Below are positions 7,331-64,000 of a stretch of 64,000 bases of DNA, one piece after another. This DNA is from Patiria pectinifera (taxonomy: Eukaryota; Echinodermata; Asteroidea; Valvatida; Asterinidae): assembly GCA_029964075.1 (NCBI GenBank), contig CM057136.1, forward strand, positions 7,068,001 through 7,132,000, read 5' to 3'. The position numbers and the translations under genes were made by a program. Positions within the stretch are counted from its first letter, which is position 1; every line of letters begins with the position of its first letter. The notes beneath the pieces are model-generated. The model ran no database searches, was not told the origin of the DNA, and saw only the letters and a list, made by a program, of their open reading frames with translations.

Positions 7331-8078
7331 TTAAAGGATATTAAGATACAACATTTGCAAACATCAAAAAACGAAATGATCAAATTATAAGGAAATATCT
7401 TACTGACTGTTAGTGAATGACAGTCTAAAGCATCCTGCAAAATCTTGGCTCCTGGTGTGATGACATTTTCAAGAAAACTTATAGGCCTATATATTTCCAA
7501 TGGTGGTTATTATTATTATTATTATTAATCATTTCTGGTAATGAAACCAAGGATTCCTCAAAAGCGCCCTAGGCACTGTAGCTCGCAAGCCTGAAGAAAC
7601 CTGTGGAGAGAAGACAATGAGAAGAAATTACAGTTTTAGAGGTGGGAGGAAAAGCCCAGAAGAATATTCTGGGGAAAACCCACGGAATCAGGCAGGGGCT
7701 GAAAACCCAATCCACATATTGGCATGTTGGCAGACCATCGTTGGAGAAAACTGTTTCCCCCCCCCCCCCAAAGCCTGCTCCTAATTTTTTAGTTATTCTG
7801 CATTTTCTTTGCAATTGATTACACATCTGTGAAGGGGTACAAGCCTGATAGACTAATTATATGACCTTACAATCCCCCAAAGTCTATAAATTGCAACGTC
7901 TCATCTTAAGGGGGTCAGGGAACAAGACTACAAGAACATGGTTGGTTTCCTTAGATTTTCCAGCATCTCCGAACCCAAACCGTGAAACCGTGGTTATTTT
8001 CTTTAGCACACTAATCCTCCAAATCCATTTATTTCTGAAGATTGCAGCAAATGCAAATGTTGTTTAAATTCCCTTTAA
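7331..8078 (-). mobile_element. TTAA-family MITE with palindromic core (copy B), interrupted
   Basis: Ends TTAAAGGATAT... and ...CCCTTTAA. A second repeat (7503-7722) sits inside the palindromic core, between CCAATGGTGG (7497) and CCATCGTTGG. In duplication copy 2 the same place (about 38445-38455, ACTTTAAACG) is uninterrupted, showing an empty TTAA target. Confidence 0.75.
7503..7722 (+). repeat. Interspersed repeat R, nested in the TTAA MITE
   Basis: About 200 bases starting with a TTA microsatellite and then AAGGATTCCTCAAAAGCGC. The same sequence recurs at 48115-48400 (+) and, reversed, at 36490-36640. No terminal inverted repeats seen; possibly part of a SINE or LINE tail. Confidence 0.6.
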
Positions 8079-9981: not shown

Positions 9982-10371
9982 AATAGCTGTGAAAGTTTGA
10001 AAAAGTGAAAGTTTGCTGTCACATTATTGTTGGAGTTTTGAAAACTGGTTCTTTGACATTTGTTTGCGGAATTGCGAACTGCGAAGACTAAATGAATTTT
10101 CAGCCCCAATTTAAACATGATGGAGTGAATTTGTGAAACTAAGTTACATTTTGTTTTACCTCTGGTTCTTTTCAACCATCCTCTTTTTTGAGAAATTATT
10201 CGCACATGGTGTTTTCTCAAACCTTTCATTCATTTCATTGTTTGTTTATTCTATTTTACAGATTTGCCGTTAGGTTCTTCAAAGATGTCTTGAGTATTAG
10301 CTTACCCTGCACTGAATAAGATAACGCTGACTCGAAGTGTGTGCGTGTCAACGTCAGCCACATGCACCAAA

Positions 10372-13300
10372 ATGTCAAACGTTTATCAAGAAATTGACGA
10401 GAGTTTGAAAACTCCAATGAATAATGAGACGAGACCAGACGAGACGACATCAAGCGTGGAGATTGACTTCCCGGCCCCTGCTAAACAATTGTTTGGCATC
10501 CAGCGCGATCGTCTGGGTGTGGTTCTATGCATATTGGTCTTAGAGCTGTGCGAGCGGCTGACCTACTACAGCATTGCTGGCAACCTGGTGCTCTACTGCA
10601 CCAACGAGCTGAAATTCTCCAGTGCTGACGCGACCACCATTTCCTTCATTTTCACAGGGACGTCTTATTTTGTGCCGGTCATCGGTGGATGGATTGCTGA
10701 CTCCGTATCGGGAAAATACAATGCTATTCTTGGAGCAGGCCTCATTTATTGCATAGGTACCAAGTTAAACTTTGTCCCCCCCCCCCCCATAAACAACATT
10801 TGCAAACATAAAAAAAAAAAAAGTACCAAATTATTATGAAATACCTTACTGGAATGATAGTGAATGACAGTCTTAAGCATCCTGTAAAATCATGGCGCCT
10901 GGTGTGCTGACATTTTCAAGAAAAGTGGTATTTTTGTATCAATTTCCAACGCTGGTCGGCTGACCAGCGTTTGAAAAAAAATTGGCTTTTTTTGTTTAAA
11001 TACTGCCCCCAATTTATCATATTTACAACATGTAGTTACCGGTAGTCTGAATTTTGTTTGCAATCGATTACACACCTATGAGCGAGTACAGCCTGACCTT
11101 AAATTCCCCAATGAGAAATTGCTCCCTTTCAATTTAAGTGGGGTCAGGGAACCAGACTACAAGAACATGCCTTTTATCAATATCAATGAATCGTGATGAT
11201 CTAATTTTGATTCTGAGAAATGATTCAAAACTTCTTGTCAATCTCCTTGACCCATTACTAAATGATAGATGTATACGATTGAAAAAGAACATTGTCAGGT
11301 TTAAAAGGGTGTAAGCTCTTTAAACCTCTGTTTAAATTGCATGTTCTTTCGTGATGCTTTTATTGCCCAACTGCAATTATTCAAATTTTGTAGAGCAATT
11401 CCATAGCTAAACCATACGAAGACTTTCATTTGATGTCTGAATCAAAAGTGTACAATGTACACATAACTTTTGTATTGTTAGAAAAACAGCAATTTGAAAA
11501 ATGTCTTTTCTCTGTTTTTTAAATATTTTAATCAAGGTACAACCATGTTGCCCATCATCTCCATGGATTATACCCAGTATGGCCCCCATCTAGGGCTGAC
11601 TGAGGGCCAACAGCGAGGCTTCTTCCTCTTCAGTCTAGCCGTCATTGCCATCGGTACAGGCGGCATCAAATCCAACGTGGGCCCGTTCGGAGCTCAACAG
11701 TTGGATGATCTTGGAGAGGAACCAGTCAAATCTTTCTTTAATTGGTGAGATTGTGACGTGGAAATTTACCATTTTGATGGGTTCATTTAATGCCACTAAC
11801 TGCCGCTAACAAATGGGTGCATACCTATGTTCCCCCATACCGATGTTCCCCAATACCGATGTTCCCCGAAATCCTTACCATATAACCCTAACCCTAACCC
11901 TACCCCTAATCCTGAGGATTTTGGGGAACATCGGTATTGGGGAACATAGGTATTGGGGAACATTGGGTAGACCCCCTGACAAATACATGCACAGGATTCA
12001 TGATCGTGAGCTTGTGGGTTTGAGTCCCGCCGTGGCCATGTGTGTTGTGCCCTTGAGTAAGGTGCTTTACCTCAATTACTCCTCCCAACCTAAGCGTAAA
12101 ATTGGTACCGGCATTATTCAGTGCTGGGAAGGTAACAGACTCGCTGAGGAGGTTTGGTGATCCCCCTCAGCAACATTTCATGGACTCGAGTCAGCCTGTG
12201 TGAATGTGGCTTAACCTTTAACCTTGTAAACGGCTCTTTAGCTAAACTTTTGCAAAATCAAATTCGAAATCACATCATAGTGAACCATACATGTATGCAT
12301 TTACATGTATGTAAAACCAACTACCTTGCACAATTGCACATCGCGATTGAAATGGAATTCATGTCTTCCTAAAAAAATTGTTTGCGGAATCATCAATTTT
12401 GAAATGTACTGTACCCTATACAGATTTCTAATATTTATGAACACAACCATGTCATTTCCTGCTGAGGTTTCTGTGTTTGCAGCTTATTGACCCTAACTCC
12501 CTCGCCTGATTTACTAAAAACCACACCCATCCTGGCAAATTCCAACACCATATGGGAAACTGCACACACATATGACCTTGATTCTGGAGGTGTGCCATGG
12601 CCAACCCAATGTAAAAGACTGTCAGTTTAGGGGTACTGTACCCATCCTGACAGATTCCAACAAAACATGCCGTTTGGGGTTTGACGAGTTGAGTTCTAGT
12701 AGAGTTAAAGTTTGCAGTTTGGTTTTACATGTACCTTGCTTTGTAATTGTCAATTTTGGGATTTTTGATGTGAAGGTTCTACTGGTTCATCAACGTGGGT
12801 TCGGCCGTCTCCTTTTCTGTTGTGGTCTACGTACAGCAGCAAATCGGATTTGATGTTGGATTTGCTGTCCCGGCTGTGTCCATTGTCCTGGCAATCATCA
12901 TGCTTCTGATTGGCCGAAAGTGGTACCGCATGAGGCCACCTGAAGGTCAGCAAGCTTTGCTAATTGGCTGTTTTGGCATCCGGCAATTAGTCGGTATTTC
13001 ATAAAACCTAAATTCATGCTACACCGGCACTTTGGACACAAAAATCAATCTGATTGCCTTTTATACTTAGGCACACTTAGACTAGTACATGTATAATCCA
13101 AGACCTCTTTTTGGTCAGGTTACATGTTTAGCCAGCAATTCCAAATGCCTCGGATGTTTGCCAAGTATGAAAAGAAAATTTTGGGCTATTATATCTCTTT
13201 CGCTACGGCAAGCCACTGGCAGCGGCTCAGTGACGTCGCTGTGAATAAACAGGGTATCCCAAATCATGTACATAATTTATATCGTATAACCTCTGACCCT

Positions 13301-19300: not shown

Positions 19301-22300
19301 CTTTATGATTAGACGAATTTGAATATGGTAGTTCTGAACTTGTCGAAAACAGTTTTTAAAATACATTAATTTGATATGACCTTTGTTGTTGAAAAGTTTT
19401 AGACCGAAATAAATTGAATGTGCTGGCTAGTTCTGAACTAGTCGAGCAGTTTGAAATAAATCAGATATATAGAAGGGACCACCAGTTTGTCTAAGAAATA
19501 GAACATTGATGTAAGTACCAGTTCACAAGTCAACCAATTAGATGACGAGGATTAATTCAGGTGCTATATAAAACAAATAATGAATGTTTCACATTCGTGC
19601 AATGAAAAGCATAATTTCATTCGGTGATGGACGAATGTTCCATTTCACTCGGCTTCGCATCGTGGAATGGAACATTCATCTGCACCTTATGACATTATTC
19701 TTACCATTGCATTCATAAGCATTCATTATTTATAGAAGTAGGTATAAAATACAATACACCGAAAACAAAAACTATGCTACAGTTAAAATGAAGTACAAAA
19801 TGTATCCATTATTATACACAAATTCTCACTTTATACAGATAAAGGACACATTGGAACAGGTCGGACAATGTATAGGGTAGGGTAGGATTGAGGGTAGTGG
19901 GGTGAGGGTGGGAAGAGAGGGTAGCATGACACATTGGAACAGGTCTGGCAAGGTATAGGGTAAGGTAGGATTGAGGGTAGTGGGGTGAGGTTGGAAAGAG
20001 AGGGTAGGATAAAGGACACATTGGAACAGGTCGGGCAAGGTATGGGGCAGGGTAGGATCGAGGGTAGTGGGTTGAGGGTAAAAAGTGAGGGTACGATAAA
20101 GGACACATTGGAACCGGTCAGGTAAGGTATAGGGTAGGGTGGGATTGAGGTAGTGGGGTGAGGGTGAAAAGTGAGGGTACGATAAAGGACACATTGGAAC
20201 CGGTCAGGTAAGGTATAGGGTAGGGTAGGATTGAGGTAGTGGGGTGAGGTGGAAAGAGAGGGTAGGATAAAGGACACATTGGACCAGGTCGGGTAAGGTA
20301 TAGGGTAGGGTAGGATCGAGGGTAGTGGGGTGAGGGTGAAAAACGAGGGTACGATAACACATTGGAACAGGTCGGGCAAAAGAATTGTTCATTGTAAAGA
20401 TTGATTTCAGAACAGTTTCCTCACTGGCTTACTACCATGTACTTACAAAGCAACGATTGATTTGTGTTGTAAAGGGACGATAAGAAAAGAAAATTTATGA
20501 CAAGAAGATATCCAAATTCTGACAAGTTTTGATGCTGAAATTAGTGTAATGTGGATGCTTCTGAGCTGCCTGCAATGACATCACACTTATTCTTATAAAT
20601 AGAGGGAAATTTGCATCAGAATAAAAACCAAAATACCCTTGAAAATGGTACATGTATTATGTTGAAGATTGAAATAACGTGGTTAAATTGGACGCAAACA
20701 TGCATTTTAGGGATTTAATTTAAAAACAAAAAACACAAAATGGACCCTTTAAGGAGAATTTTCAATCCAGTTACCGTCACAGGATATTTCATCAATATGT
20801 GCCTTTTAGTCAAGACCTCACAAAATCCTCACATTAGTCAGCCAAAATTAAATCCTTTGATAGAAATCACGAAATAAACTATTGCAATTTAACTTTAATT
20901 CGTGATTTTTATGAATATTTTCCCTGTACAGGACTTATAGCCGGGTTCAGGGCTACACGAGAAAAATAAAAAGAAGAGTAAATACTCAGGAAAACTGGTT
21001 AGGAATTCCAAAGAGATGCAGCACCGTGCACGTGGGAAAAAGCTATTGGAATATCATTTTGTTCTACATCTAGGTATTAGCAACAGTGAATGGATGAGAA
21101 CAGGCGGAAAGTCAGAGTTTTTCTCTCAAACACTCTGATTGGAGGAACCAGGTTGGATAGTCTCCATCCTTGATATTTGTGGTCTGACTTGTGTCTGACT
21201 TTGGACTTGACTTGTGATCGACTCGACTAAAAGTCTGGATTGTCGTCGATGTTCAGTGTGCTTGGGCCGGTGATTCTTGAGCGGCCTTCACTGGTGGAAT
21301 CGCTTGAAGTTCTATCTGCTCTGTCTGCTGCGGTCGGCGGCAGCGGCGGCACTGTTGAAGGAGCTTTGCCAGCGGGGGAAAGGCCTCCAGGAGAGCCGCT
21401 CGATACTGACTGTTCGTCACGCTGTACACCAGAGTATTGATGGAGCTGTTGATGAGGCGAAAAATTACTACGCATAAGGCTACGTCGACAAAGGTCCAGT
21501 ACATATCGGCAGCTTTTGCGGCTGAGAGCATGGAGAAATGGAGTTTGATGTCAATGACAGTAACGGCAATGTCCATTGAATTGAGAACGAAAAAAACAGC
21601 AGTGTTGATGACCAGCATGCGTACGACGGGGTAAACTCGACGTGTTTGGCCTGCTAGACGCTCTCGGTCACTTTGGCACAATTTGATAACGATGAAAATA
21701 TACGAGGAAATAGTAATAGTAAACATTGCCAGGTAAATCACTAAAAGGATGACAACACCTACTTGAGAGAAAACCACACTCCTGGCATAATTAGTATCAA
21801 ATGCAAGTCCGCCCAAAATGCCAGTGACAAGTGCCACAACCCAGATGCCTGCTGATACCTTGGCTGCGCGTGATTTGGTCGCTCGCGCTCTCTGGGTTAG
21901 CGGTTGACGTACGGCGAAGAATCTTTCGACCGCTATGACAGTCACGAAGCCATACGAAGCAATCTGCATCGTTGAAGAAGCTATGTTTACAACTAGAGAA
22001 GCACCTGAAGCTATGTGTGTGTATTCGGCAACCCATGTTGTTGACATGAATATGATCAGAAAGGCAGCGTCAGCCACTGCTAAATTCGACAGATAGACGT
22101 TAATGATCGTGCGCATGGACTTCACTCGAATTACTACGAAGAGAAAAATAGAGTTCAGTAGAATTCCGATGGGAGCGATGATTGTGGCAAACTGACGGAT
22201 TATGTCGTCGTAGGTTTGCCTATGAGTTTCGGCATCACGGAAAAGCTGCCTCTCATCGGGTGTCAGTCTGTCGCTATGTCTCATTGTCCCATTCATCTTT

Positions 22301-25300
22301 CTTTAAGGATGATGTCTTGACAGGCCGGTTCAGAAGTCTATATGTACATGTATCTACATTTACAGCCAGATTATAACTCATCTTGGGAAGAGCAATATGA
22401 AATAAGAAAAGAGAAAAGAAAGCGACAAACACTTGGCATGCATTATAACCAACTCACTCTTCGCGCCTTAAATGGAAATGTCAGAATACTTAGTTTCCAT
22501 TTCGATCAGCAGATCCAATAAAGTTAAAGGCACTATTGCGTGAATGGTATATTTCTAAACTCACTCCAAGGGTGAGCTGAACCCCTGGAGCATGGGTTTG
22601 TGCAGTTCAAATTGCCCCTATTGGATGTTTGATAGCATGAGAAACAATAACAATGTCTTGCAATCTTAATCTTGTTGTTGAACCTAATTACACCACACCC
22701 TGCATCCCCCACGCTGCCCCATCACACCCCACCCGATCCCACCCTACCCCAAAGTTTGACCAAAGTTATATGTACATATTTCTAAATAATCTAAACTCCC
22801 GTGTGTTAGCTTTATATACATGTACCATGCTTCATTTATTTACAGATTGTGGTCAAATAATGTTAACTTTTAGCTAACTATAGTCTGTTCCGCACTGCAT
22901 GTGTATCCCTTGAATGGGGTTTTTGTAAAAGTGGTGACGTAAACTGTTTTATGTGGGCAAAAATAACATGCAAAAGATGCTTTGTATGCATTAATAAAAA
23001 AATATTTGGGTCGCCTATCTGTTGTCCGTTGGTATATGACGAAAAAGGTAATATCATGGTCTATACAGAAATGAGCCATTAAAGAGAATTGTCTCCCATC
23101 CTAATTTTGTTCTGTCCCACTTTACAAACACCTTGATATAAGTTTGGGGTGCGACGTCATGATAACTTGCATTTTTTATAAAAATTGCTAGACTGCACAA
23201 ATGTATCCAACTTTTTTCGGAATCAATTTCATTTCCTGGACGTCAGAAGTTTCAATTTCCTTTCTCTTTTTTAACCCAGCATATTCTTATACAGTTTCTG
23301 GTTTGCTTGAGACAATAGTAGTGATACCAAAAATTCATTATCGAAACACGATTGGGTTTCCTCGTTTACACACTGGTCACAGCCACATGTTGAACGATAT
23401 ATTCTCAGAAAGTTTTTTATAGTTACAAAGTCATCACGTGAACTCATGACTATAATATTTTGGCCATGATTTGGGGGCTTATTTTTGACACTCCAGCACA
23501 AAACCAGCCGCTTGGACAAATTTTGAAAGCTGGGATTTGGGCTCATTGGAAAGGACATTTAATAAGCTTTCCAATGATGTAGGCCTACAGAATATGGTTG
23601 AAGGGATAGCCGCTTACTAAGCAAGTGTCTATGATAACGCTAGCAGATATTGGTGATTGCAAAACAAGACTGCGTTTTGACCTAAAGATTCCGACCATTT
23701 AGTGGCCGCCTTCTGTTGGATCTTTGGTAACCAAATGTTGTATTACAAAAACATAACAGCAAATTTACCAATCCACATTAGGCCGAATTTTCTGCTCGCA
23801 ATGGCGTTGCAATTTGTAAAGTGGACTCCGATTGGCTGGCGCGTGGGGTCTCTATGCTCACATAATTATATCGGACGTTGTTGCTGAGCTTGCGGGCTCC
23901 GTTGAACAACAGCTGATACTTAAACTATACAGAATGGGAGTCTGAAAAAATGTGAAGGAGTGACAGGTTTTTTCAGTTTCCAATTCGTCGGGCCTCGGAA
24001 AGTTTTTTTATTTTCTTAAATCGAGAAATTTGTCATTAAAGTTTCCCAACTTAACTCCTTAGAAAATTTACAAATTAACTTTGTTAAAGAAAAAGTGGTG
24101 GAAAGTCATGTCAGTCAGGCAAAATTAAATATATAAAAGTAAGTTGGCACTCTGAATGAAAAACTAGAGTGAAAGTGTGCATAAGCTTTCGAAGCTACAA
24201 CTACTTCATCAGGTGCATCTAGTGTGCGTTCTTTCAGCAAAACGAAAACAATTCGCACACATCCCTAGACGTGTTTTTTTTTTCCGTTTTCTGAAGAACG
24301 CTTACCTTTTTGTTGTCCTTGGACAGAACTTTAAAACATTGGTTGTGTTCAAAATTCCGTAACTTAAAAAGTACATGAGTGATTTGAATTATTCTAAAAC
24401 AACACTTTGCGTCAAAACGACAGAGTGTTTTTTAGTTGGGTTTCTCGTTGTTGACACTTGATGAATTGAATTTACTAAATTTGCTGTTTTTCGCCCGTTT
24501 GTGTATTGAATAAACAAGAAATAAGAGAAAAAGGATGAGTGTTAGTTCGTGACACCGATAAAGCTGCCAAACTGTAAATTTTTGTTTTCACGAAGTAAAG
24601 GCCCTGTCACACTGTTTGCGATCCTATATGCGCTCTCACTGCGGCCTTGAAAAATAGCTGAGGCGCAACAACAACTACTGCCGGTAGATCGCAGCGACAA
24701 CTACATAGGTCGCTTGATGGGCACCAGAGGGTCTAAATGGTCTCCGATGAGCGCAAAGGTCTTTGAACATGCTCAAAACAATCGCAACACCTCTGCGCTC
24801 TGGCCAGGGCGCCATAATGACGCAACTTGGGCGCTGTACATACAAACTAACAGGATGCCAGGGGATCATGCAAGTTTTACTTGTAGTATTTTTAGGTTTT
24901 GGCATTTTCAAATTTCTTAGGTTTTCAGCTTCAAAATTATATATGATTTCGTAGGCACTGAGAACCTTATCATGCCTAGGAGGCAGAGTTGTAACGAGTC
25001 ACTGATTTTTGTGACTCGAGTCGAGTCGAGTCATTTTAAAGAAGTGACTCGAGTCGAGTCAAGTCATTAGGTCAACAAGGTCGAGTCGAGTCGAGTCACA
25101 GAGTGTGGTCGAGTCACAGAGTGTGGTCGAGTCGAGTGGAGTTGAGTCAAGTATTTAGCTCGAGTCAATTTGAGTCACAAATATTTGAACACTATATAAT
25201 AAATTACAATAAAAAGCAACAAACACAAGAGAGAAAGGATACAAGGCACCAGTCTATTACGAAAATCCAAATACATAAAGTATGCTGTATGGTACCCAAC

Positions 25301-36489: not shown

Positions 36490-36640
36490 GCCTGGGCCTG
36501 GGTCAATATGTGGATTGGGTTTTCAGTCCCTACCTGATTCCATGAGTTTTCCTCAGAATACTCTTCTTGGCTTTTCCTCCCACCTCTGAAACTGTAATTT
36601 CTTCACATTGTCTTCTCTTTACTAGGACCCATGGGAGATC
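36490..36640 (-). repeat. Interspersed repeat R, reverse copy
   Basis: Reverse complement of the 7540-7720 sequence (CCAATCCACATATTG ... TTACAGTTTCAGAGGTGGG). Confidence 0.6.
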
Positions 36641-38000: not shown

Positions 38001-39181
38001 CAGAAAAGCATGGACAATTTTTAAATGTTTAAAGAAGTGCATTTTTCAATAAAATCAACAAAAAAATTAAGAGATGTATCATAGTTTTCATACAATAGAG
38101 GAGAGGAAAGTGGAACAGTCGATCCCCATCCATTTTTTGTGTTTCTTTGCTACCAAAATAACCGGTTTTTTTTCCGTTTTAGAAGTCTGCGCAACCCTCT
38201 GAAAACAATGTGTTTTTTGGGGGGGGGGGGCAAAATTTTTAATTGCTTTGCAATTAGACTGGCCCCCGTACGTCCTGTATATTTCTGATACTGATTGTGG
38301 GGCGGGAACCAGCCTACTGTCTGGCAGCCAATAGTTCGAAAATTTGTCAAGTATTAATTCAATAACTAAACTTAAAAATTTGGGCTGATTCTTTGTTTAA
38401 GGGTCCAGGTCTCATTCCAAAGTGAATAACTTTTGTAGATTTAAACTTTAAACGTATCCGTTTGTGCACATTTAATGCCTTGTTTCCTCAGAGCAAAGTA
38501 AACTGTTTGGACTGAAATGGTAGCCTATTTGTTTTCAAGCCCTCATGCTTGTGGTTTTGGGAATTGATTACTCTGGTAATATTTCGTGGTCATCTCGTGA
38601 CTCCAGCTTATATCACATGATGCAGTCGATTGTCATGCAATCTTGTTTATCATGTTTACACTCAATCTCTACATCTTCCAACTGCTGTTTTGTTGACATT
38701 TGTTGTATTTTTCTCTCCTGAAGTGTTTGCGTACATACGGGTCACTGCTAATTTTTGTCTAAAGTTCATTTTATTTATGGTAGGGCGTATTTTGCTGGTT
38801 CCCTTTTTGATAGATTGATACACTATGTGAGTGCTGTTCAAAAGTTCCTCCGATTTCTTTGCCTTTGTTTTACTAGACAAAACCATGTATGTTGCTTTGA
38901 TTTTCCCAAAAAAATTCCTGTGAAAGTTTGAAAGAGTAAAAGTGTGCTGTCAGAGTGGAGTTTGGAAAACCGGGTCTTAGAAATTATTTGCAAGCTGCGA
39001 AGACCAAAGGATTTTTAAAGCCCAATTTAAACATGTTGGAGTGATTTTAAGCCCAATTTAAACATGTTGGAGTGACTTTGAAACTAATTTACACTTGGTT
39101 TGTTTCTTTCTTTTCGACAGATTTGCTGTTCAGTTCTTCACAGATGTTGTCCTGACTGAGTTTTTTTCTGGCTGCACCAAA

Positions 39182-42100
39182 ATGTCGAACGCTTACGATG
39201 AAATTGACGAGAGTTTGAAAACTCCAGTGAAGAATGGCAGCATACCGGACGAGACGACATCAAGGGCAGAGACAGATTCCCCAGCCCAAGGGAGAAAGTT
39301 GTTTGGCATCCAGCGCGATCGTCTTGGTGTGGTGCTGTGTATATTGGTCTGTGAGTTGTGCGAGCGGATGACCTACTACAGCATTGCTGGCAACCTGGTG
39401 CTCTACTGCACCAACGAGCTGAAATTCACGAGTGCCGACGCGACCACCGTCACCTTCATCTTCACAGGAACGTCTTATTTTGTGCCGGTCATCGGTGGGT
39501 GGATTGCTGACACCGTGTCGGGAAAATACAATGCTATCCTCGGAGCTGCCCTCATTTATTGCATAGGTATCAGTTTGAATTTATTTTCCCTCATGTGTAT
39601 TGTCATTACAAACGACCATGACAAGGTGACGTATTAGCGATTGGGCTGTGAATGTTCAAATTTCAGTTAGTATCTGATTTTTCCAACTAGGACTTGTTGA
39701 ATAATATTTGAATAATTGAATTGTAAATGACTGATTGAGTTAAGTTGTCCATGCGATGAATTTTTCTAAGGAACACATTTTGTGCAACTTTCTACTCAAA
39801 TTAAATGTATGGAAATTATTTGACATCCCTTTTTGGTTAATTTTATTCAGAGGCTTTTCCGGAAACTGGGATGTCATTTCAGAAAGACACTGTTCAGTTT
39901 AGGGGTTTTCTGTTCAAATGTGAACCAAAAAAATCTGCTCATAGAAATTATATTTGTGACAAAATTTGCTCATTGGCTTACTGCCGTGTGCTGACACAAC
40001 AGATCACCAAGGAAAAGAAAATTTACAACAGCAAAATATCCAAAATTCCGGTAACTTTTTGTGCTGAAATAGATGTGACATAAATGCTTGTGCCTGAAAT
40101 GACATCACACTTTTTCTCATGAATATGAAAATTGCATCAGCATAAAAACCAAAAAGGCACCAAAATACCCTGGAAAATGGCAAAACGAAAAGTGAAAATA
40201 AGGTTAAAAATGTGTATTTTCAAGAACTGCCTTAAAAAAAATTACATTGCATGGACCCTTTAAAGGGAATGTACATCATTGGGTTTTGCTATAATTTTCG
40301 GAAATGAACTATATGAGGGGTTAGTATAATGGATCAAATATTGTTACACTGACATATTTAAAGTTTTGTGTTCGAAAATGCTGAAAAAACCAAGAAAAAC
40401 AAAAATGTTCAAGTAGTCTGGTTTCCTGACTCCACTAAAGTTGAAATGGATCAATTTATAGATGCCGGAAAATTGTAAGGTGAGGGAACCAGTCTAGCTG
40501 GCCTGCACCCGTTCATGTACATGTAACCAATAGCAAACAAAATTTGGACTGAAAAAAATGGTAAATTTGGAGCAGTAGTTGAAAAATAGTTAGGTTTTTC
40601 CAACGGTGGTCGGCCGACCACCGTTGGAAATGTATACAAAAATACCACTTTTCTTGAAAATGACTTCACACCTGGTGCCGTTATTTTACAGGATGCTTTA
40701 CACTGTCATTTACCAACATCCTAGTAAGGTATTTCGTAAAAACTGGGTAGTTTTATTTTTCGATGTTTGCAAATGTTGTATATTCCCCTTAAACTTGCGA
40801 ATTAAGCCTAAACTGGCCACCGATCTGGATTCACACGCACATTAGCCTGTATATAGCCACACGGGCCTTGACTAAAGGCTATATGCCCATGAACATGCAC
40901 CTAAAAATAATGTAAAGAACAGGTAGCTGAATGACCAATTTTAAGAAGAAATTTGACCTAAAATATAGGTCTTGTCCTCATGGACGCTGTCAAGTCATGT
41001 GCGAAAGTGGCATTCAACAAAAGTTTGGCATTTCACAAACAGTATGAAACCACATCATCTCATCAAGACTGCTCATTTTTTTTTGAATACTTGAATTTAA
41101 AAAAGGAGCTTTTTTGGATATTTGGTTGATGATCAAATATTCCAATATTCTGTATATTCGACACAGCCTTAATTTTTTTTTGGGGGGGGAGGGAGTTGTG
41201 CTACAAGCACAACTCTACAGGGCGAGTCAAAAAATAAAGGAAACCAAAATGTCAGGACCATCTTTTTTTTTTATAAAGTTCTGCATGTAGCACTTCCAAA
41301 ATCTAGGATGTGAAAGCCCAATTCATAAGCCTTTAGTACATGTACAAGAATAATTCAAATCACTCATGTACTTTTTAAGTTACAGAATTTGAACAAAAAC
41401 ACTGGTTTAAAATTCAGTCCATGGATCAGAAACACCGTTAGTGTTCTTTCAGCAAAATGTGTAAATTGTTTTTTTGTTTTGCTGAAAGAACACTTGCTTT
41501 TTTGTGATCGGTGGACAGAAAGTTTAAAAGGTGTTTATATGTTTGAAATTCCGTAACTTGAAAAGTACATGAGTGATTTGAATGATTCTTGTACTAAAAG
41601 AAAGCTTATTAATTGGGCTTTTATATCCTAGATTTTTTTAAGTGCTGCATGCAGAACTTCATGTAAAAAATGGTCCTGGGTTTCCTTTTTTTTACTCACC
41701 CTGTAGAGAAGCCTTTAGTTGGACAAAGGAATTTGTTTGAAGTTTCTGTCCACATGCTCTTCAACAAATGACTTTTTTTCGCCACTAACAAATTTTCACA
41801 ATTCATGTTTTATTCAAAACACTTTCTATTACATGTATTATCAGCACCCGCCACCTGATAAAAAGGTTTTATTTTCGGTGTTTTTTTTAAAAATAAATCT
41901 CTTGAAGGTAATTTACAACATTTGCCAACATAAAAAACTGCCAAATTACCTTACTTGACTGTAAGTGCAGAATAGTAGGGCCAAAAATAGGTCTGCTTCC
42001 GAATGGCATTTGAAAATAGGGTACATGTAGGTAGGTAGGGACAAATTTTTGGGCACTTTTTTTTGTACGATCATTTGGAGGTGTCTGCGTGTAGTAAATG

Positions 42101-45100
42101 GTCAAAGGGAGTAATTGATGGTTTTTGAGTTTTTTTCCTCATTCCCCCTCCCCCCCCCAAAAAAAAATTAGAGTAGGCCTAGGGGCTGTAAAAAAAAATA
42201 GGGTAGGTAGGGTAACCGGAAGCAGAATTATTAGTTTTGTGGGCTTAGTCTTAAGCATCCTGTGAAACCACGGCACCTGGTTTCAATAATAGTGGATTTT
42301 TTGTATTCCAATGATGGTTGGTCGAACATCGTTGGAATTTTTTTTTTTTGGTGACATTTCGTTTACAAACGGTTACACATTCCTGAACGGGTGGAAGCCA
42401 GCTAAATTCTGGCTCCCTGAGCTGACAATTCCCCGACATCTGAAGTAGGGTCAGGGAACCAGACTACAAGAACAGCATTTTTGTTTTTGGCTTTTCAGCC
42501 TTTATGATCACAAAACATTAAATAGGTCAGTAAAACAATATTTTCCATAAAATACTTAACCCCAAATCCATGCAATGCATATCCATTACTTAAAGGGAAT
42601 ATACATCATTTACTTTTGCTGTAATTTTCAGAAATGGATGGAATTGGGGGTTGGAAATATATAGCAAATATAGTTACACTGACTTTTTTGAGGTTTTGGG
42701 TTCGAAAATGCTATAAAAATCAAGAAAAACAATCATTTTCCTGTAGTCTGGTTCCCTGACTCTATATAAGAAGAAACAGAGCAGTTTACATACATTGGGG
42801 AATTGTAAGGTCAGGGAACCAGTCTAGCTGGCTTGTACCCGTTCATAGGTGTGTAATCGATTGCAAACAAGTGCGATGGTCAATTGGGGACAGTATTTGA
42901 AAAAAAGCCAGTTTTCCAACGCTGGTCGGCCGACCAGCGTTGGAAATTGATACAAAAATACCACTTTTCTTGAAAATGAGTGCCATGATTTTACAGGATG
43001 CTTTACACTGTCATTCACTAACAGTCCAGCAAGGTATTTCAAAATGATTTGGTAGTTTTATTTTTTGATGTTTGCAAATGTTGTATTTTCCCTTTAAAAT
43101 TACAACACACATTACAGCACATTCAAAAGTGAATAACTTTTGTAGCCTATTGTTAGAAAAAAAAAGGAATTTCACAAAACAAAATTTACACTTTATAAAA
43201 ATCTATATTTCCAAAACTGTATGCAGACTTTTTCTTTCGATGTCTCATTCATAAGTGAATTTCTTTTCGTATTGTAAGAAATATAGCAATTTGAAAAAAT
43301 CATATAGTTGTGATTGAATTTTGGAAATACAGGGTGTCTAAAAAATATTGAACCCTTAAAGCGCTCTCTTTTACACAGCCTTTAAAAACATCGCAAATGT
43401 GGATACATATTTAGAGAGTAAAATTTATTAGCTTTCAACAATGAAAAACTCTTGCTAATCGGGTAAAATATTTATTTTATGACCAATTGAAAACAAGCGC
43501 CGCTTTTTCATTTTGTCCACAGCGACTGATATTTTGACTGCCGTGATCAGAACAGGGCCGAAACTTGCATCCCGTGCAAAAGGCTATCAAGTAGAGGGCA
43601 GAAACAGAGCAGCACAGTAAACATCTAAGAAGTTAACCAAACAGTCCTTTTCTGGACTACCATTACTACCAAAATCGGTGCTTATTTTTAACTGCCAATA
43701 AGTTAACTCAATAAATATTTGCCCAATTGGAAAGGTTTTTTTCATTGTTGAAATGCTAATGAACTAACTCCTCAGACTTTTTTATTTTTTTAAAGCTGTA
43801 AAAAAAAAGGAAGCTTTGAGTTTTGTTTGTTTTGTTAAAATTACACCCTGTGACATTGGGAGAGTAACTTTTACATTCTCAATGTTGTTGTTGTATCTTT
43901 CTATTTTTCTTTCATCAAGGCACAACCATGTTGCCCATCATCTCCATAGATTTTACCCATTATGGCCCCAACCTAGGGCTGACCGTGGGCCAACAGCGAG
44001 GCTTCTTCATGTTCAGTCTAGCCGTCATTGCCATCGGTACAGGTGGCATCAAATCCAACGTGGGCCCGTTCGGAGCTCAACAGTTGGATGATCTTGGAGA
44101 GGGTCCGGTCAAATCTTTCTTCAATTGGTAAGATCATGGTCAAACTTCTTTGTGTCAAATGTAATAAAATGGCCAGCAAAACTCAAAATCGAATTTTCGA
44201 TTCTCCAGGTTTTTGTAAAGTATAATTTTGGACTATTTCATGTGAAGGTTCTACTGGTTCATAAACGTGGGTTCTGCCATCGCCTTCTCTGCCGTGGTCT
44301 ACGTACAGCAGGAGATCGGATTCGATGTGGGATATGCCATCCCAGCAGTCTCCATCGTCGTGGCGATCTCCATGCTTCTGATTGGCAAAAGGTTTTATCG
44401 TATGAAACCGCCCCAAGGTGAGAAGACGTTTATTTTTTTTAATATCCGGTTTCCAAAATCAAAACCGCGAAAAGTGGAACTCAAACCGAATCCGTGTATC
44501 CAACCACGAGCATAGCCACAATGGAGTTTTAATAACAAGTGGTAACATTTCTTTCTTTTTTTATTTGCGAATGCGGCGTTAAATTTTTGAGTATTTTTTT
44601 TTATCGGCCATTAGGGAGCGTGTTCACAACTGTCGCTAAAATCATCTGGGAGGCTCTGTCACGAATCAGGCAGCCCAACGCCAGAAAATGTGAGATGACA
44701 ACCTGGCTGGATCGCGCCAAGCAGAGCTTCGGTGGTCACTTCCCAGACTTCAAAGTGGACGAAGTCAGGTCCTTGGGAAGAATTATACCAGTTTTTATTT
44801 GTATCATCTTCTACTGGACTGTCTACAACCAGGTGAGTGAGTCTTGCTTCAAGACTGATTTTTTGTTCCTTGATGCAGTCGCGGTCCTGCATGCCTGCCA
44901 AGTTTGGTTGAGCTGTTGCAGAGAGTGCTGTTAACAAGATGAATCAAATCCATTGTCTTGACTTGATTGAGAAATACTGAGTGTACCTTACTCGTTTGGT
45001 TAGCACTGCGCCTTGCAGTCTATGTAGCGCAATAGCAATCTGATTGTGGTCGTAGTTGATTGTAGTTGTGCAATAGTGTAACGTCTGTGCCGGGCTGCTG

Positions 45101-48100
45101 GCAGAGGGTACCAGCACGGACCCACGGTGCAGCCGTAGCGTTGGGACCCCTGCTGCATGGTCAGGGAGACCCATTGCAGACTGTGCTGACCCACTGTAGT
45201 GTGACATTTTGTATAACGCTTTTTGTTGTGAGTTGTTTCCTTCGTCGGGCGTGTGAAAACCCAGGATCCGGTCAAAAATACATTGGTGGCATCCATGTCT
45301 TCTACACCAATACAGGTGCCAGGGCCCACGATCGGCCCCATAACCCATAAGACGGACGCACGTTCCCTTCCGGAACAGCTCCGTTCCTCACAGATCCATA
45401 CACCGGCTGCATATTTCCTGCCGGATCAGCCCAATAACACAAACATTTATATGACGGACGCATGCTTCCTTCCGGAATAGCTCCGTTCCGCTCACATCCA
45501 TACACCGGATGCATGTTCCCCTGTGGATCGGCTCTCCACCACACGAGTCAATTGAGCAGAGCTTGTACAGTTGCTCAGCATGGGAGTCTATGGAGCTGAG
45601 CTGTTGGAGCCGATGGAGTTGCTCTGCACGGGAGACTTTTTTGGCGGGGCCAGCGCAGTTGCTCCGCATGGGAGTCTATGGAGCGGAGCCAATGGAGCCA
45701 ATGGATCGGAGTTGCTCCGCTCTGAGACTTTGGGCGGAGACAGCGCAGTTGCTCCACATGGGAGTCTATTGGAGCGGAGCCGGTGAAGCCGACCTAGTTG
45801 CTCCGCACCGGAGTCTGTGGAGCAGAGCTGATGGAGTTGCTCCGCATACGGGTCTATGGAGCGGAGCCGGAAAAGCCGACCTAGTTGCTCCGCACGGGAG
45901 TCTGTGGAGCAGAGCTGATGATGGAGTTGCTCCGCATACGAGTCAATGGAGTGGAGCCGGCGCAGCTGCTCTGCATGGGAGTCTATGGAGTGGAGCCAAC
46001 AGAGCTGGCAACCCAGCTACTAACTGAGTGTGACCCTGCTACTACATGAGTGTGACACTATGTGATCTTTTCCTACTGCAGTGCTGACTTTCCAGACCCA
46101 GATGAAGGCTGAATCAGTTGAGTTAATGAGCCTAGACTTGCAAATAACTCATTAGATAGTCGCGTTTTGTCTGACGAGGCCTCCAATATTTGCTAGCAAC
46201 GTACTAGCTGGCGTCCTATATCATGTTTACATCCGGCATCCGACAGGCCTAACTGTAATTGGAAGCAACGTACACGCATAGGGCCGAGGATGCAGGAATC
46301 GTTTCTGCGTGTTGTCATACCGTGTGCTTCACGTAACCCTGGGACGGCATGCGGTGGTCAACGCCGGTAATATGGTGCACGGCGGGGCAGGCGGACTAGT
46401 TTCCAAGACTGGATTTGTTGAATTAGTCTTTTGAGAAGAGTTAGCTGAAAATATACTAGTAACGCGGTAACCTTTGTTCATCAATTAATGTATACAACAC
46501 CCAAAATTGTTTTACTGGTAATAATGTCTGCCTTTGCACAAGATACGGACAGAGCCAGCTTGGTTAGGGGCTATATGTACACTATTCTGTGATATAGTGT
46601 TAATAATCGTCGGATTTGAACAGGGAATGGAACATGCCTCATGAAATTATTCCTACCTTTTGCACTCATACACATTCATTATTGTATTTCATCTAGTAAT
46701 AATTGTGTTGTATTGCTTCCAGATGTCAACCACCTATTTGCTGCAAGGGGAGCGTATGCGTCTGGTCTATGGCAGTTTCACCATACCCGTGGCTGCGCTA
46801 AGCCTCTTCAATGCCGCAATCATTCTTGTGATGATTCCGTTTGTTGACCGTCTGCTCTACCCATGCATGGAAAGAATTGGATATCCTCTCTCAAAACTTA
46901 AGCGAATAGGTGAGTTGTATCTCCTCATTCTGTTACAACGAGCCTATTTTTTTCCTCATGCATATTGCAACGGACAGTTTATGCAGCACTTTTGCTGTCG
47001 TTGCTTTCTTTTGCTAGGGCTCCAGCGAAGGGGCTCCGGCGGCGCGCACCCGACCTGTTTTTGGGTCTGGCTGGCTCGCACTCCGGAAATGGGCTCCATA
47101 CATAGTTGCTTAAGTGGGTTTCTTTTGTCTGCGGGAAAGGTTTGGCAAGATGCCGGGGTCATTACATGTTGTTACAATTGTATACATTTGTTCAGACTGT
47201 GTGTTTTCTATGCTGGGAATGATCAGGTGTGGTACTGGTAGCAGTGTGGCAGGTTGACCACAGAGTTCTTAAGCTGAATGAATAAGAGGTTGTCCCCTTT
47301 TCTTGCGTTTTGCCAGATGCGGAGGACAAGAGCCCAATAAGTTTGTGTTACAATATCGTTTTGTGCGTTTGTCTCCTCTTTGTCTTTGCTTCCGTTGTTT
47401 GTCTCTTGTTTTTGTGGTTTTTTGTTTTGTTTATTTATGTTTTGTCTGTATGCTTGTTTTTTGGGGTTTTTTCAAGCTGTTCCAAATATACTCAAACATT
47501 TGAGCATGAACTGAATATTCTAATAGCTTTTTGACAGGTGAAACAGTGTTCAGCCAGACATACAATAGGAAATCGGGCCAATACGCTTTGAAAAATTCAC
47601 GATAAAAATGTTATTGAAGTCTAATTTTGTTTGAAAGCAAGGATTCTGTTAGGACCAAAATGTTAGGCCGCGCCTCATCGTTTTGTTTGTTTTGTATATT
47701 TCAGGTTTATCCAGTCAGCAAACAGTTTGCCACAGGTTTATTCATTTTCAGGATAAAATTTGTCATAAAAATGTCTCGTATCAGTCAAAACTAAAACTGA
47801 AATGTGTAGCACATTCCAGTTTTAGCATATTTAAATCCTTTATCTTTATTGTCTGAGAAGTAACTAAGTACTGTATGTAATAGGCCTATGTAACGTTTGG
47901 TTACGGGTACCCGATCCCATAATCTAGAACCGCTTCTTGACGTCAGCGGTCTGTTTTTTTGGTCTGACTTTGATGCATAGGGAGCAAAAGTAACCCAAAG
48001 TAAAAGTCTCGCTGATGCTTTAAATAAAAAAAAGTAATGTAAATTGAATATTTGTAAACAAGAATCTAGCTATTTTAAAGGTAAAAATGTTATGTTTATT

Positions 48101-50660
48101 TTTTATTTATATCTTTGTAATAAAACTAAGGATTCCTCAGAAGCGCTCTTGGCATTGTAGCTGGCAAGCCTGAAGAAACCTGTAGAGAGAAGACAGTGAG
48201 AAGAAATTACAGTTTTAGAGGTGGAAGGAAAACCCTAGAAGACTATTGTTGGGAAAACCATGGAATCAGTTAGGGACTGAAAACCTAATCCACATGTGGA
48301 CCAGGGCAGGAATCAAACCCAGGCCACGGCGGTGGAAGGCGAGGAAACTCCACTGAACGCCAACCTAACTCCAAAGTAGGGCAAAAGGATTGTAGAATGC
48401 TGAATTTCACCTTCTTTTGTCTCCATTTTTATCAGGTATGGGCATGGTACTAGCTGTCTTTTCCATGATCTTGGCAGCTGGAGTTGAATTTGGCCGGAAA
48501 GCAAACATCAACGAGTATGGCTACTTCCCGCAGGTAGTTGCTGGCCAGGTCTTCAACGCCTCGGACTTGTCCGTCTTTGCACAGGTTCCTCAATACGCTT
48601 TTATTGGAGCCAGTGAGATTTTCACAAGTATTACAGGTAGCTATTTTTTTTATACCTTTAACAATTTTGAAAGATGCTGCCTCATTCTTAAGAAAGTTGG
48701 ACACGCCTCTCCCCCCCCCATATTTAAGGTGCCGGGATATCGTAACGTTTGTTCCACCCCCACGTTTTTCGTCTCGAAATAGAAATTGTGGCCTATATTT
48801 GATGCTGTAGCTCAGAATAGTTGTTTCAATGACTCCAAACTCAAAATGATAATCAAATATGATGTGTAAAAAAAAAAAAAAATTGGTTAAAGTGGTCAGA
48901 AGTTGCCTCAGATCGCATCACAGAGCGTCTAGAATCCAAAATTGTTCAAACCCCATGCCAACAAGGTTTCTCACATTCTTCTGACCAAGTTTCACATTGC
49001 TGCTGTACGTGCTCACCTGACAAAAAAACACGCAAACTGATTGGTCAATTTACACTTTCCGATTGACAGTCAGGCCGGGTCTGTTATGGACAATATCCAA
49101 GAAGGTATTTTTTTCCCAATATTTTTTTTTTATTTGTGAAGTTCTGTTTTTCTCTTTGCAGGCCTAGAGTTTGCGTACTCTCAGTCTCCCAAATCAATGC
49201 AAGGAGTGGTCATGGGGCTATTCCTGGTAACTACAGGTCTAGGTAGCTACATTGGTTCTCTGCTGGTCACTGTCGTCAATGCAATTACCTCCAGTAAGTT
49301 GGGTAATTCTTGATAACAATGTAGTTGCATACATCTAGTCCTACTAACCACACTAAGTAGTATCATGCAATGATTAGGTATGAATTCAGCTAGGGACAGC
49401 ATCAGGAATAGATTTCCGGTCTCTCCTAAGTGAATAAATGTGTGCTTGGGAGGTGTTATAAACACTTTGTTTAAGACTATTTTGAGTCTGGAATGCTGAT
49501 ATAATTACTCGAGGCGAAGCCAAGGGTAATAAGGTGTTTCATGGTTATATGCGCCATCTTGTTCGTCCACGGGCAAGATTGGGCATATTTCCGTGAAACA
49601 CCTTATTATTAGCATTTATAAAAACCTTTTCGGTCAAAAAATCAAAACTTTTCGGTCCAAAAGTCACAACAAGTCAAGAATAAAAAATTTCCAACCAATT
49701 TTATCAACAATTAACTTTACTTTATTTTTTGTGATAAATGGAGGTTGGCGCATGCGCCATGTGTACTGCGTCGTCGTTGGCACGCAACTTACAGCTACGC
49801 GATGTCGCGCTGATCCGATGATTTATAGCAACTGCGGGCCCATGTGCATCATGTCAACACTTGCGCGCACTTCGCCGAATAGAAAAACGAACTACTAATG
49901 GCAATTTCCAAAGATGCGTCTTTAGAAAGGCCTTCTTTTGTTGATTTCTTCAAAACAGCTTGCCAGAGAGAATAATTTCACAGGGAGTTTAGTCCCCTTA
50001 CTATCTTTCAACCATTAAAGTATGTTTTTCAACAATAATTATGCCAGTAACTTTTTGGATAGCTGCAAATGATGGACTGTGGCTTTAACCAATACAACGG
50101 TAAAAAGCACTGGATTTCATGGTAGCTGCAATCGGTTTAGTCAGAACGTATGTGTCTTGGGAGCTGAATTCAGGCCCAATTCAAAACATGACTCGGCAAC
50201 TTTTGATTAAATCCCGATACTAGAATATTGTTTTTTTTTTTTTTGGAATATACAGCATTCACTGAGCTTAAACTTCATCGGTTTATTTGTTCAGCATATG
50301 GCCCGTAACCTTCTTTATAGATTTGAGCACTTTATTGTTGCTTCAAACGAACATAATTATGCACAAATTGCAAATGATGGACGCTACTTTTATTTGGATG
50401 CAGGTGGTGGGGAGTGGATTCCGGATGAAGTCAACTACGGTCACCTTGAGTACTTCTTCCTCGTCTTGGCTGTGATCATGGCCATCGACTTCGGCTGTTT
50501 CTTGTTCATCGCGAGGGGCTACATCTATGTCAAGGATGCCGAGATACAGCATGACGACCAGTGCAGCGACCAACCTCCGGACCCTGGGGATAATGGAGAA
50601 CCAATGTCCCGCAGGGGAAAAAAGCCGGGCATTCAGGATGAAAACACGCCCCTTTTTTAG
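39182..50660 (+). CDS. Proton-coupled peptide/histidine transporter, SLC15A4 (PHT1)-like, copy 2
   Basis: Paralogue of the gene at 10372. Exons: 39182-39566, 43920-44127, 44248-44417, 44615-44832, 46723-46909, 48436-48636, 49162-49293, 50404-50660; 585 aa. Exons 1-7 match copy 1 in length and phase; exon 8 is two codons shorter, one codon (SGGEW for SAGSEW) lost at the join. ExxER (ELCER, 58-62), FYWFINVGS, GLEFAYSQSPKSMQG and twelve hydrophobic segments are intact. The C-terminus DENTPLF is a weaker version of the acidic dileucine in copy 1. An acceptor at 39120 followed by the same ATTTGC start of UTR shows that a 5' leader exon exists. No frameshift or stop is seen, so both copies look functional. 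Substrates (histidine, small peptides) are inferred from the family. Confidence 0.93.
39845..40258 (-). repeat. Dispersed repeat with ATGACATCACA motif, intron 1
   Basis: Same family as 20400-20760 and, reversed, 37386-38000; ends at GCATGGACCCTTTAA against the next element. Confidence 0.55.
40259..40792 (+). mobile_element. TTAA-family MITE with palindromic core (copy D), intron 1
   Basis: TTTAAAGGGAATGTACATC ... GCAAATGTTGTATATTCCC with TTAA ends. The palindrome at 40600-40627 is perfect: arm CCAACGGTGGTCGG and its exact complement. Its seventh base differs from other copies in both arms. Confidence 0.8.
41218..41703. mobile_element. Tc1/mariner-type fold-back MITE, intron 1
   Basis: CAGGGCGAGTC ... 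TTTACTCACCCTG with TA outside both ends; inverted arms as in the 33623 copy. Confidence 0.8.
41905..42560 (-). mobile_element. TTAA-family MITE with palindromic core (copy E), interrupted
   Basis: Family landmarks ACAACATTTGCCAAC, AAGCATCCTGTGAAA and GGGTCAGGGAACCAGACTAC. The palindrome at 42308-42335 is imperfect. A GGCC-type MITE (41979-42244) is inserted in its left third. Confidence 0.65.
41979..42244. mobile_element. GGCC-end MITE (TCTGCTTCC family), nested
   Basis: GGCCAAAAATAGGTCTGC ... GCAGAATTATTAGTTTTG and a closing GGGC. The same family is at 63179-63434, where a clean 3-bp target duplication is seen. Confidence 0.7.
42590..43097 (+). mobile_element. TTAA-family MITE with palindromic core (copy F), full length
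   Basis: TTAAAGGGAATATACATC ... GTTGTATTTTCCCTTTAA. The perfect 28-bp palindrome at 42916-42943 has arm CCAACGCTGGTCGG. About 90 percent like copy G by eye. Confidence 0.85.
43330..43850. mobile_element. Second mariner-type fold-back MITE family (CAGGGTGTC)
   Basis: Starts CAGGGTGTC preceded by TA and ends ACACCCTG followed by TG, a decayed TA. The inner arms are inverted copies (TTTCAACAATGAAAAAC on the left, its reverse on the right). Ends 69 bases before exon 2 of transporter copy 2. Confidence 0.7.
45340..46020 (+). repeat. GC-rich degenerate minisatellites, intron 4
   Basis: 45345-45530 holds two roughly 105-base units (GACGGACGCACGTTCCC / GACGGACGCATGCTTCC with CATACACCGG). From 45560 to 46010 follow imperfect 60-70-base units built on GTTGCTCCGCATGGGAG and TCTATGGAGCGGAGCC. 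The composition contrasts sharply with the AT-rich intron around it. Confidence 0.8.
46910..48435 (+). other. Intron 5 of transporter copy 2
   Basis: 1.5 kb, against 11.3 kb in copy 1. Contains only repeat R (48115-48400) and AT-rich sequence; no GPCR, LINE or minisatellite. Confidence 0.7.
48115..48400 (+). repeat. Interspersed repeat R, longest copy
   Basis: AAGGATTCCTCAGAAGCGC ... GGAATCAAACCCAGGCC, about 285 bases, ending 35 bases before the exon 6 acceptor. It reaches further right than the copies at 7503 and 36490. Confidence 0.6.
48868..48965 (-). mobile_element. Fragment of the GGATCC hAT MITE family, intron 6
   Basis: AAAGTGGTCAGAAGTTGCC ... CAGAGCGTCTAGAATCC matches the interior of 53564-53875 and 59954-60269. 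Confidence 0.6.
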
Positions 50661-55071: not shown

Positions 55072-55594
55072 TTAAAGGGAATATACATCATTTGTTTTTG
55101 CTGTAATTTTCAGAAATGGATGGAATTTGGGGGCTGGACATATATAGCAAATATAGTTACACTGACTTTTTTAGGTTTTGGGTTCGAAAATGCTATAAAA
55201 ACCAAGAACAACAATCATTTTCCTGTTGTCTGGTTCCCTGACTCCATATAAGAAGAAACAGAGCAGTTTACATACAATGGGGAATTGTAAGGTCAGGGAA
55301 CTAGTCTAGCTGGCTTGTACCCGTTCATAAGTGTGCAATCGATTGCAAACAAGTGCAATGGTCCATTGGGGCCAGTATTGGAAAAAAAAAGCCAGTGTTT
55401 TCCAACGCTGGTCGGCCGACCAGCGTTGGAAATTGATACAAAAATACCACTTTTCTTGAAAATGACAGTATACCAGGTGCCATGATTAAACAGGATGCTT
55501 TACACTGTCATTCACTAACAGTCCAGCAGGGTATTTCAAAATGATTTGGTAGTTTTATTTTTAGATGTTTGCAAATGTTGTATTTTCCCTTTAA
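55072..55594 (+). mobile_element. TTAA-family MITE with palindromic core (copy G), full length
   Basis: TTAAAGGGAATATACATC ... TGTTGTATTTTCCCTTTAA, with a perfect palindrome at 55402-55429 (arm CCAACGCTGGTCGG). Directly joined to the next element. Confidence 0.85.
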
Positions 55595-63178: not shown

Positions 63179-63434
63179 GGCCAAAAAGAAAAAATAGTTC
63201 TGCTTCCATTACATGGCATTTGAAAATAGTGTAGGTATATATAGGTAGGAATTTTTTTGTTTTTGCCAATTTTTTTTGTGTACGATCATATGGAGGCGTC
63301 TGCGTGAAGTCAAGAGTCAAAGGTAGAAATTGATGGTTTTGGGCGGTTTTTTGTGTCATTGTTCCCATAAGGGTAGGGGCTGTCAGAATAGGGTAGGTAG
63401 GGAAACCGGAAGCAGAATTGTTTTTCTTTTGGCC
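63179..63434. mobile_element. GGCC-end MITE (TCTGCTTCC family)
   Basis: GGCCAAAAAGAAAAAATAG then TTCTGCTTCC at the left; GGAAGCAGAATTGTTTTTC and a closing GGCC at the right; TCA on both sides. Partner of 41979-42244. Confidence 0.85.
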
Positions 63435-63584
63435 TCAGCTCAGTAAATGAGAAAGTGTGGAAATGCAGCTTTATTTTTCTTGACGCAAAGTTGAAAGCCC
63501 CCCCCCCCCCTCCAAAATGTTAATTAATACCGGTACGTTTTGACTTGCACCCTCTTGTTAATTGCTCCCAAGTTTGTCACATGG

Positions 63585-63864
63585 GAAAAATAATACACAT
63601 TCACAGATAGTATGCAATCGATCGCAAACTAAATTAAATTCATTCATTTGGGAGAGTATTGGGGAAAAAAACCTTTTTTTCCGCCGCGATGGGCCTATTC
63701 ATCGCGAGGAATCGATGGTAATTTTTTTCTTGGAAATGACAGCACACTATGCGCATTGATTTCACAGGATGCTTGATCCTATTACTTATTTACAATCGGG
63801 AAGGATAAATTATGGCAGTTTAGCTTTGGAATGTTTGAAAATGGGGTCCATAATTTGCCTTTAA
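63585..63864 (+). mobile_element. Diverged TTAA-family MITE (copy H)
   Basis: Keeps the order CAATCGATCGCAAAC, A-rich, palindrome, TTCTTGGAAATGACAGC, ACAGGATGCTT and a closing CCTTTAA. The core at 63681-63710 has entirely different arms (CGCGATG / CATCGCG) yet still pairs. Confidence 0.6.
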
Positions 63865-64000
63865 AATAGGATTTACATCTTTTTTCTTTATGAGGAACCT
63901 ATGTTTCTAGGCTAGGTATTCACATTTGGGTGGACAGACAAAAATGATTAAGTGTGATTTGCAAATGATGATTAAAATAAAAAAAAAAACAATGATGATG

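Follow-up and report, generated by a model that had tools for sequence, protein, structure and literature searches.

Paired changes between lineages in the central palindrome of a TTAA-flanked MITE

The central palindrome of a short, TTAA-flanked element has changed in both arms together between lineages of the element, whereas individual copies lose pairing at a rate near that of their flanks. The compensatory change and maintained hairpin proposed in an earlier note on this DNA are thus borne out at the level of lineages and fail at the level of copies. The best explanation, to which we assign a probability of roughly 0.55, is that the internal dyad or hairpin of this MITE is kept in the lineages that spread, by selection during mobilisation.

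Results

Copies of the element in the window

The window, that is, the whole 64-kb stretch of DNA analysed, contains eight copies of the element (A–H); in two of them, B and E, a repeat insertion interrupts the sequence. The eight TTAA-flanked copies described earlier, with their coordinates and arm letters, were confirmed when the window sequence was re-checked. The features are as follows.

3012–3463, minus strand: MITE copy A, subfamily A, pair 7 C-G; core 3168–3195, 2 of 14 pairs broken (BLAST)
7343–8078, minus strand: MITE copy B, palindrome split centrally by a repeat at about 7507–7730; 4 of 14 pairs broken (profile search)
10793–11176, minus strand: MITE copy C; core 10946–10973, 2 of 14 pairs broken (profile search)
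40260–40792, plus strand: MITE copy D, subfamily D, pair 7 G-C (BLAST/nhmmer)
40600–40627, no strand: central palindrome of copy D, perfect, CCAACGGTGGTCGG/CCGACCACCGTTGG; identical to the majority core of 30 D loci
41902–42590, minus strand: MITE copy E, subfamily E, pair 7 A-T; core 42308–42335, insert 41976–42245, 4 of 14 pairs broken (profile search)
42590–43097, plus strand: MITE copy F, subfamily F, pair 7 C-G (BLAST/nhmmer)
42590–42611, plus strand: left terminal inverted repeat of copy F with TTAA, TTAAAGGGAATATACATCATTT; 91% complementary to 43076–43097
42744–42826, plus strand: second hairpin, the internal control; arms 42744–42760 and 42810–42826 (in copy F)
42916–42943, no strand: central palindrome of copy F, perfect; pairing reaches 42913–42946 (17-bp arms)
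43076–43097, minus strand: right terminal inverted repeat of copy F with TTAA
55072–55594, plus strand: MITE copy G, F-like; perfect core 55402–55429 (BLAST/nhmmer)
63553–63868, plus strand: MITE copy H, old subfamily H; core from 63681, subfamily arms CTCGCGATGGTT/AACCATCGCGAG

The cores of F (42916–42943) and G (55402–55429) are the perfect palindromes that the earlier note took them to be, with arms CCAACGCTGGTCGG/CCGACCAGCGTTGG, and the core of D is likewise perfect, its G7 being matched by C8. In E, A7 and T8 still pair in a core that has otherwise decayed. The arms CGCGATG/CATCGCG of H are present at their reported place; they are the regular arms of an older subfamily and not new ones. 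The palindrome is found in all eight copies, with 2, 4 and 2 of 14 pairs broken in A, B and C, respectively. The symmetry had been thought to be confined to the centre; this proved incorrect, as the element also has 22-nt inverted ends and the second hairpin.

Several further features of the window were observed. A weak profile match to the element at 49946–50088 (E 0.0016) is perhaps a ninth, very old fragment. The repeat that interrupts the palindrome centre of copy B (7507–7730) has a TAA-rich tail and relatives at 48090–48295 and 36504–36618, and the insert of copy E (41976–42245) has a 71% relative at 63190–63435, just ahead of copy H. For each of copies A, E, F and H, a partner of 95–100% identity lies about 97–103 kb further along the same contig, reflecting either tandem segmental duplication or haplotypes that are unresolved; for copy D, the best 40 genome matches listed include no partner of this kind. 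The window also holds a POT-family transporter exon (46645–47241, Pfam PTR2) and a minus-strand ORF that runs without interruption and encodes a rhodopsin-family receptor (21253–22302, Pfam 7tm_1, E 4e-17), both in keeping with animal DNA. The ORFs at 10294–10839 and 39062–39637 look alike by eye and matched no Pfam family; our guess is that they are two neighbouring gene copies.

Ends, class and genomic abundance of the element

By its short length, inverted ends, fixed target duplication and high copy number, the element is a nonautonomous DNA transposon (MITE). Copies F, G and D measure about 508–533 bp including the TTAA ends, or about 500–525 bp without them. The terminal inverted repeats, 22 nt including TTAA, read TTAAAGGGAATATACATCATTT in copy F, and in the eight window copies the element ends are AGGGAAT flanked by TTAA. 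TTAA lies on both sides in 67 of 70 F- and D-type genome loci, a sample that takes in the F and D copies of the window and a few segmental duplicates. The Kolobok superfamily, as characterised in the consulted part of PMC9587614, is defined by a TTAA target and RR...YY termini, and the T2-MITE group, in that of PMC6004289, by a terminal AGGRR motif adjoining TTAA. The present element has the TTAA target duplication and RR...YY termini, and the F and D consensuses have AGGGA next to TTAA at either end; by its termini alone, it is a putative Kolobok/T2-type MITE. A piggyBac MITE was ruled out, the termini AGGG...CCCT being of the RR...YY type (contrast as drawn in the consulted part of PMC9587614). 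Identity with a KolobokP terminal repeat (LTDR) was also rejected: when 4 of 23 nuclease loci were compared with the MITE consensuses, the best BLAST match (E 0.024) was at chance level.

In the host genome (613.5 Mb, 1,020 contigs), the palindrome pattern with pair 7 left free occurs at 2,603 sites and its backwards-read control at none, and the palindrome itself is therefore not a product of chance. Neither the palindrome nor the terminal patterns matched anything in collections of viral contigs and genome contigs. Among 50 listed of the 2,603 sites, tallied by eye with the element strand not assigned, pair 7 is C-G in 31, G-C in 9, A-T in 1 and mismatched in 9, and T-A is absent. Each arm in 42916–42943 opens with the near-palindromic 10-mer CCAACGNTGG, which only a T at position 7 would make perfect.

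Queries with copies F and D found at least 39 further genome places each, at 94–99% and 93–95% identity, respectively. First-look candidates numbered 417 to 3,973 per query, and the loci read are the best matches only: from the best 40 per query, 40 for F, 30 for D, 20 for A and 20 for E, and for H 35 of 40 from one query plus 20 of 40 from a second. The F and D samples contain the window's own copy. Ungapped cores were obtained from 39/40 F, 30/30 D, 20/20 A, 11/20 E and 16/55 H loci, the H alignment being guided by a typed template, and this requirement biases the sample toward better preserved copies. Copies of F, D and A were selected through matches spanning the core, while most E matches end short of it. 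The lineages sampled are E, A, F, D and H, with subfamilies B and C left out.

Paired changes between lineages

The majority core is a perfect palindrome in E, A, F and D, and in H (16 copies) a perfect 12-bp hairpin with a 7-nt loop, in consensuses whose flanks share identities of 0.59–0.86. E and H have A-T at pair 7, A and F have C-G, and D has G-C. Relative to E, H is changed at pairs 2, 3, 4 and 12, each on both sides. Twelve pairs in five lineages give 60 cells (pairs 13 and 14 were excluded because H lacks them), which hold 14 substitutions against E and not one broken pair. Seven of the 60 cells are both-sided Watson-Crick changes, at pairs 2, 3, 4, 7 and 12, corresponding to about six events since the pair-7 state is common to A and F. 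By comparison, neutral simulation on the flank tree at the flank rate predicts 17.7 broken and 1.2 both-sided cells; at a third of that rate, 7.7 broken cells are still expected and the probability of none is 0.00055. From E to H alone, the arrangement of eight substitutions as four Watson-Crick pairs has P = 8e-6. One cell depends on the reading of H: at pair 3, the majority of 19 copies gives T.G and that of 16 copies gives C-G, left position 3 being occupied in these 16 by C in 8 copies, by T in 5, by G in 2 and by A in 1. This position was read as C because the site is a CpG; taken as T.G, the lineage counts become one broken and six both-sided.

The lineage cells bear on the simplest alternative, namely that founder effects in the subfamilies and chance produced the pattern with no constraint at all. 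Their 0/60 broken pairs against 17.7 expected contradict it unless the lineage consensuses are wrong, and we regard it as barely credible. It draws what strength it has from the window alone, in which the covariation noted earlier is marginal: with substitutions per copy held fixed, two or more compensated pairs arise in A–E with P = 0.040–0.078 (F and G carry no changes, and H was omitted for its indels). A tree simulation of the window (A/B-node root, F as reference, H again omitted for its indels) gave 17 substitutions against a neutral expectation of 35–39 and 12 broken pairs against 30–33, with compensated pairs no higher than expected (P for two or more, 0.37–0.50).

Both-sided change of this kind would also be produced, with no base pairing, if the arms were half-sites of a homodimeric transposase or host factor and followed its changing specificity. 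The near-palindromic 10-mer with which the arms of the E, A, F and D types each begin fits such a two-fold binding site. The spacer between the 12-bp arms, by comparison, passes from 4 bp (GGCC) in the E/F type to 7 nt (TGGTCCT) in H, a shift that a hairpin loop would accommodate more readily than a rigid dimer and that speaks mildly against a dimer site, which we consider unlikely.

The second hairpin served as a control. Three of its 44 lineage-by-pair cells are non-Watson-Crick (one of them G.T) and none is compensated; the centre in the same four lineages has 0/48 non-Watson-Crick cells, a small difference from 3/44.

Decay of copies within lineages

Within lineages, changes in the arms are mostly one-sided. 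D copies carry 25 one-sided and no both-sided changes in 420 pairs, A copies 14 and none in 280, and E copies 30 and 2 (1 Watson-Crick) in 154. F copies carry 28 and 11 (10 Watson-Crick) in 546; of these 10, nine are the shared A-T state at pair 10 and one is at pair 5 at CpG sites. These counts for D, A, E and F include segmental duplicates, and the nine pair-10 copies of F cannot be split into events. H copies carry 51 one-sided and 10 both-sided changes in 192 pairs, with 6 of the latter Watson-Crick against 4.6 expected if the sides are independent. In the D, A, E and H copies, compensated changes do not clearly outnumber the double changes that chance would give. Quasi-palindrome correction of resident copies would be recognised by such an excess, and these lineages give no clear sign of it.

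Private changes were compared with base-matched flank in 97 copies of F, D, A and E, three segmental duplicates having been dropped. The core has 47 private changes against 59 expected, close to the flank rate, divided into 28 against 31.7 at CpG (P = 0.29) and 19 against 27.4 off CpG (P = 0.06; pairs 7 and 10 excluded). When the comparison is made on all changes and without base matching, off-CpG core divergence in F, D and A is about half that of the flanks, and CpG divergence is equal. The slightly lower off-CpG divergence of the core (P = 0.06) leaves room for weak correction. Taken together with the lineage data, this suggests that the symmetry is important during the spread of the element and no longer once a copy is resident.

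Two outcomes had been named in advance as refuting the idea, and both were seen: copies carry unpaired arm changes at a rate near that of the flank, and the variant arms seen in D, E and H are the consensus of their subfamilies. They do not sink it, because the subfamily consensuses themselves covary.

Mismatched variants as founders of sublineages

Some D copies are mismatched at pair 7. The three copies with C7.C8 have five flank variants in common that occur in none of the 27 others, and three of the four copies with G7.T8 share four flank variants of that kind. For the pair-7 states on the flank tree, the Fitch count is 3 against 6.7 shuffled (0 of 1,000 shuffles as low). In the C.C group, 7 of 12 distinguishing flank sites have a state unseen in the other consensuses; its C.C pair could be either a step towards G-C or a later break. 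In F, pair 10 in 36 copies is G-C in 19, A-T in 8, G.T in 7, A.C in 1 and A.G in 1, G.T being as frequent as A-T. The clustering of these states by flank is modest, with a Fitch count of 12 where shuffles average 15.4 and 14 of 1,000 fall as low. When the three mismatched sublineages are counted as lineages, four central cells are non-Watson-Crick (one C.C and three G.T). Variants in which one or two pairs were mismatched (C.C) or wobble (G.T) gave rise to sublineages, indicating that perfect pairing is not strictly required.

The G.T cells bear on whether an RNA hairpin transcribed from the element, as a small-RNA precursor or structural RNA, is the object of selection. Three of the four mismatched sublineage cells are G.T on the plus strand, which would be G.U in a plus-strand transcript; three such cells are too few to carry the argument. 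An Rfam search of 40200–43200 gave no match on the central core and only two matches at E ≤1, both outside the element, and selection on an RNA hairpin appears highly unlikely. These two sub-threshold microRNA matches (E 0.26 and 0.35) lie in an inverted-repeat stretch at 41417–41516 and are probably due to chance.

Discussion

The earlier note offered two explanations, that the hairpin is needed or that its arms are homogenised. Selection, or template switching in the source lineages, remains of these; ongoing homogenisation of resident copies was not seen. Compensation tracks the rise of lineages and is undetectable in individual copies, so ongoing correction of chromosomal copies explains the data poorly.

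The main rival is template switching in source copies (quasi-palindrome correction), in which a polymerase uses one arm as the template for the other, so that a single event re-establishes pairing and no selection is involved, the lineages then inheriting the corrected arms. This is a known mechanism that creates and maintains hairpin stems, according to the consulted part of PMC8794818; the adjacent compensated pairs 2–4 of H resemble a template-switch block, and the C-G/G-C transversion pair at pair 7 is reached more easily in this way than by two separate mutations. Against this stand the near-flank decay of the core with no clear compensated excess in D, A, E and H copies, the persistence of mismatched variants for long enough to found sublineages, and the second hairpin, which has a longer loop and 0/44 compensated cells. 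We consider template switching in source copies doubtful, and prefer selection while the element spreads.

Under selection during spread, copies with a weakened hairpin would propagate less well, most lineages founded by them would die out and compensated ones would take over. The hairpin or cruciform would be read during mobilisation, be it in excision, replication or assembly of the transposition complex, and not in the resting chromosomal copy. We propose, tentatively, that efficient propagation of a TTAA-type MITE depends on an internal DNA hairpin or cruciform, which is selected for its pairing and not for its sequence and is re-paired as the lineages drift. The usual known cis-requirements of such elements are their terminal repeats; on this tentative proposal, the central dyad would be a structural cis-element distinct from them. 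A central hairpin that covaries between lineages and not among copies points to a step of the life cycle that reads structure. Because a single genome offers thousands of copies, selection acting at the time of spreading can be separated from mutation in resident DNA, a distinction that is difficult to draw for single RNA genes.

In the titles and abstract openings of the open-licence literature, no MITE with a compensated or cruciform palindrome was found. The template-switch hairpins of PMC8794818 are alike, in the part consulted, in their both-sided stem changes and in the joint alteration of adjacent pairs; those cases are RNA genes on species trees, whereas the present copies individually show no clear excess. 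The T2-MITE of Xenopus and Kolobok elements (consulted parts of PMC6004289 and PMC9587614) share with the present element the TTAA target, the AGGRR start, RR...YY termini, a nonautonomous nature and division into several subfamilies. By comparison, the word palindrome is absent from PMC6004289, and the present element is tied to Kolobok by its ends only.

The solo terminal repeats of KolobokP, as described in the consulted part of PMC9587614, also have TTAA, RR...YY and short inverted ends, the solo units being seemingly self-mobile, and I-PpoI-type nuclease loci occur in the present genome too (23 matches). Unlike KolobokP, the MITE has no match beyond chance at 4 of the 23 nuclease loci, and its length is about 500–525 bp, not about 450 or 660. 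At one locus (L166, 2263–3225), two neighbouring direct repeats of about 450 bp lie upstream of a His-Me nuclease match in a KolobokP-like arrangement. DINE-1 of Drosophila, in the consulted part of PMC2374699, is likewise abundant and nonautonomous, with a short hairpin whose stem differs among species in a way taken as compensatory. Its hairpin lies near the 3' end and was compared between species, whereas the present hairpin is central, belongs to a TTAA element and covaries among lineages of one genome.
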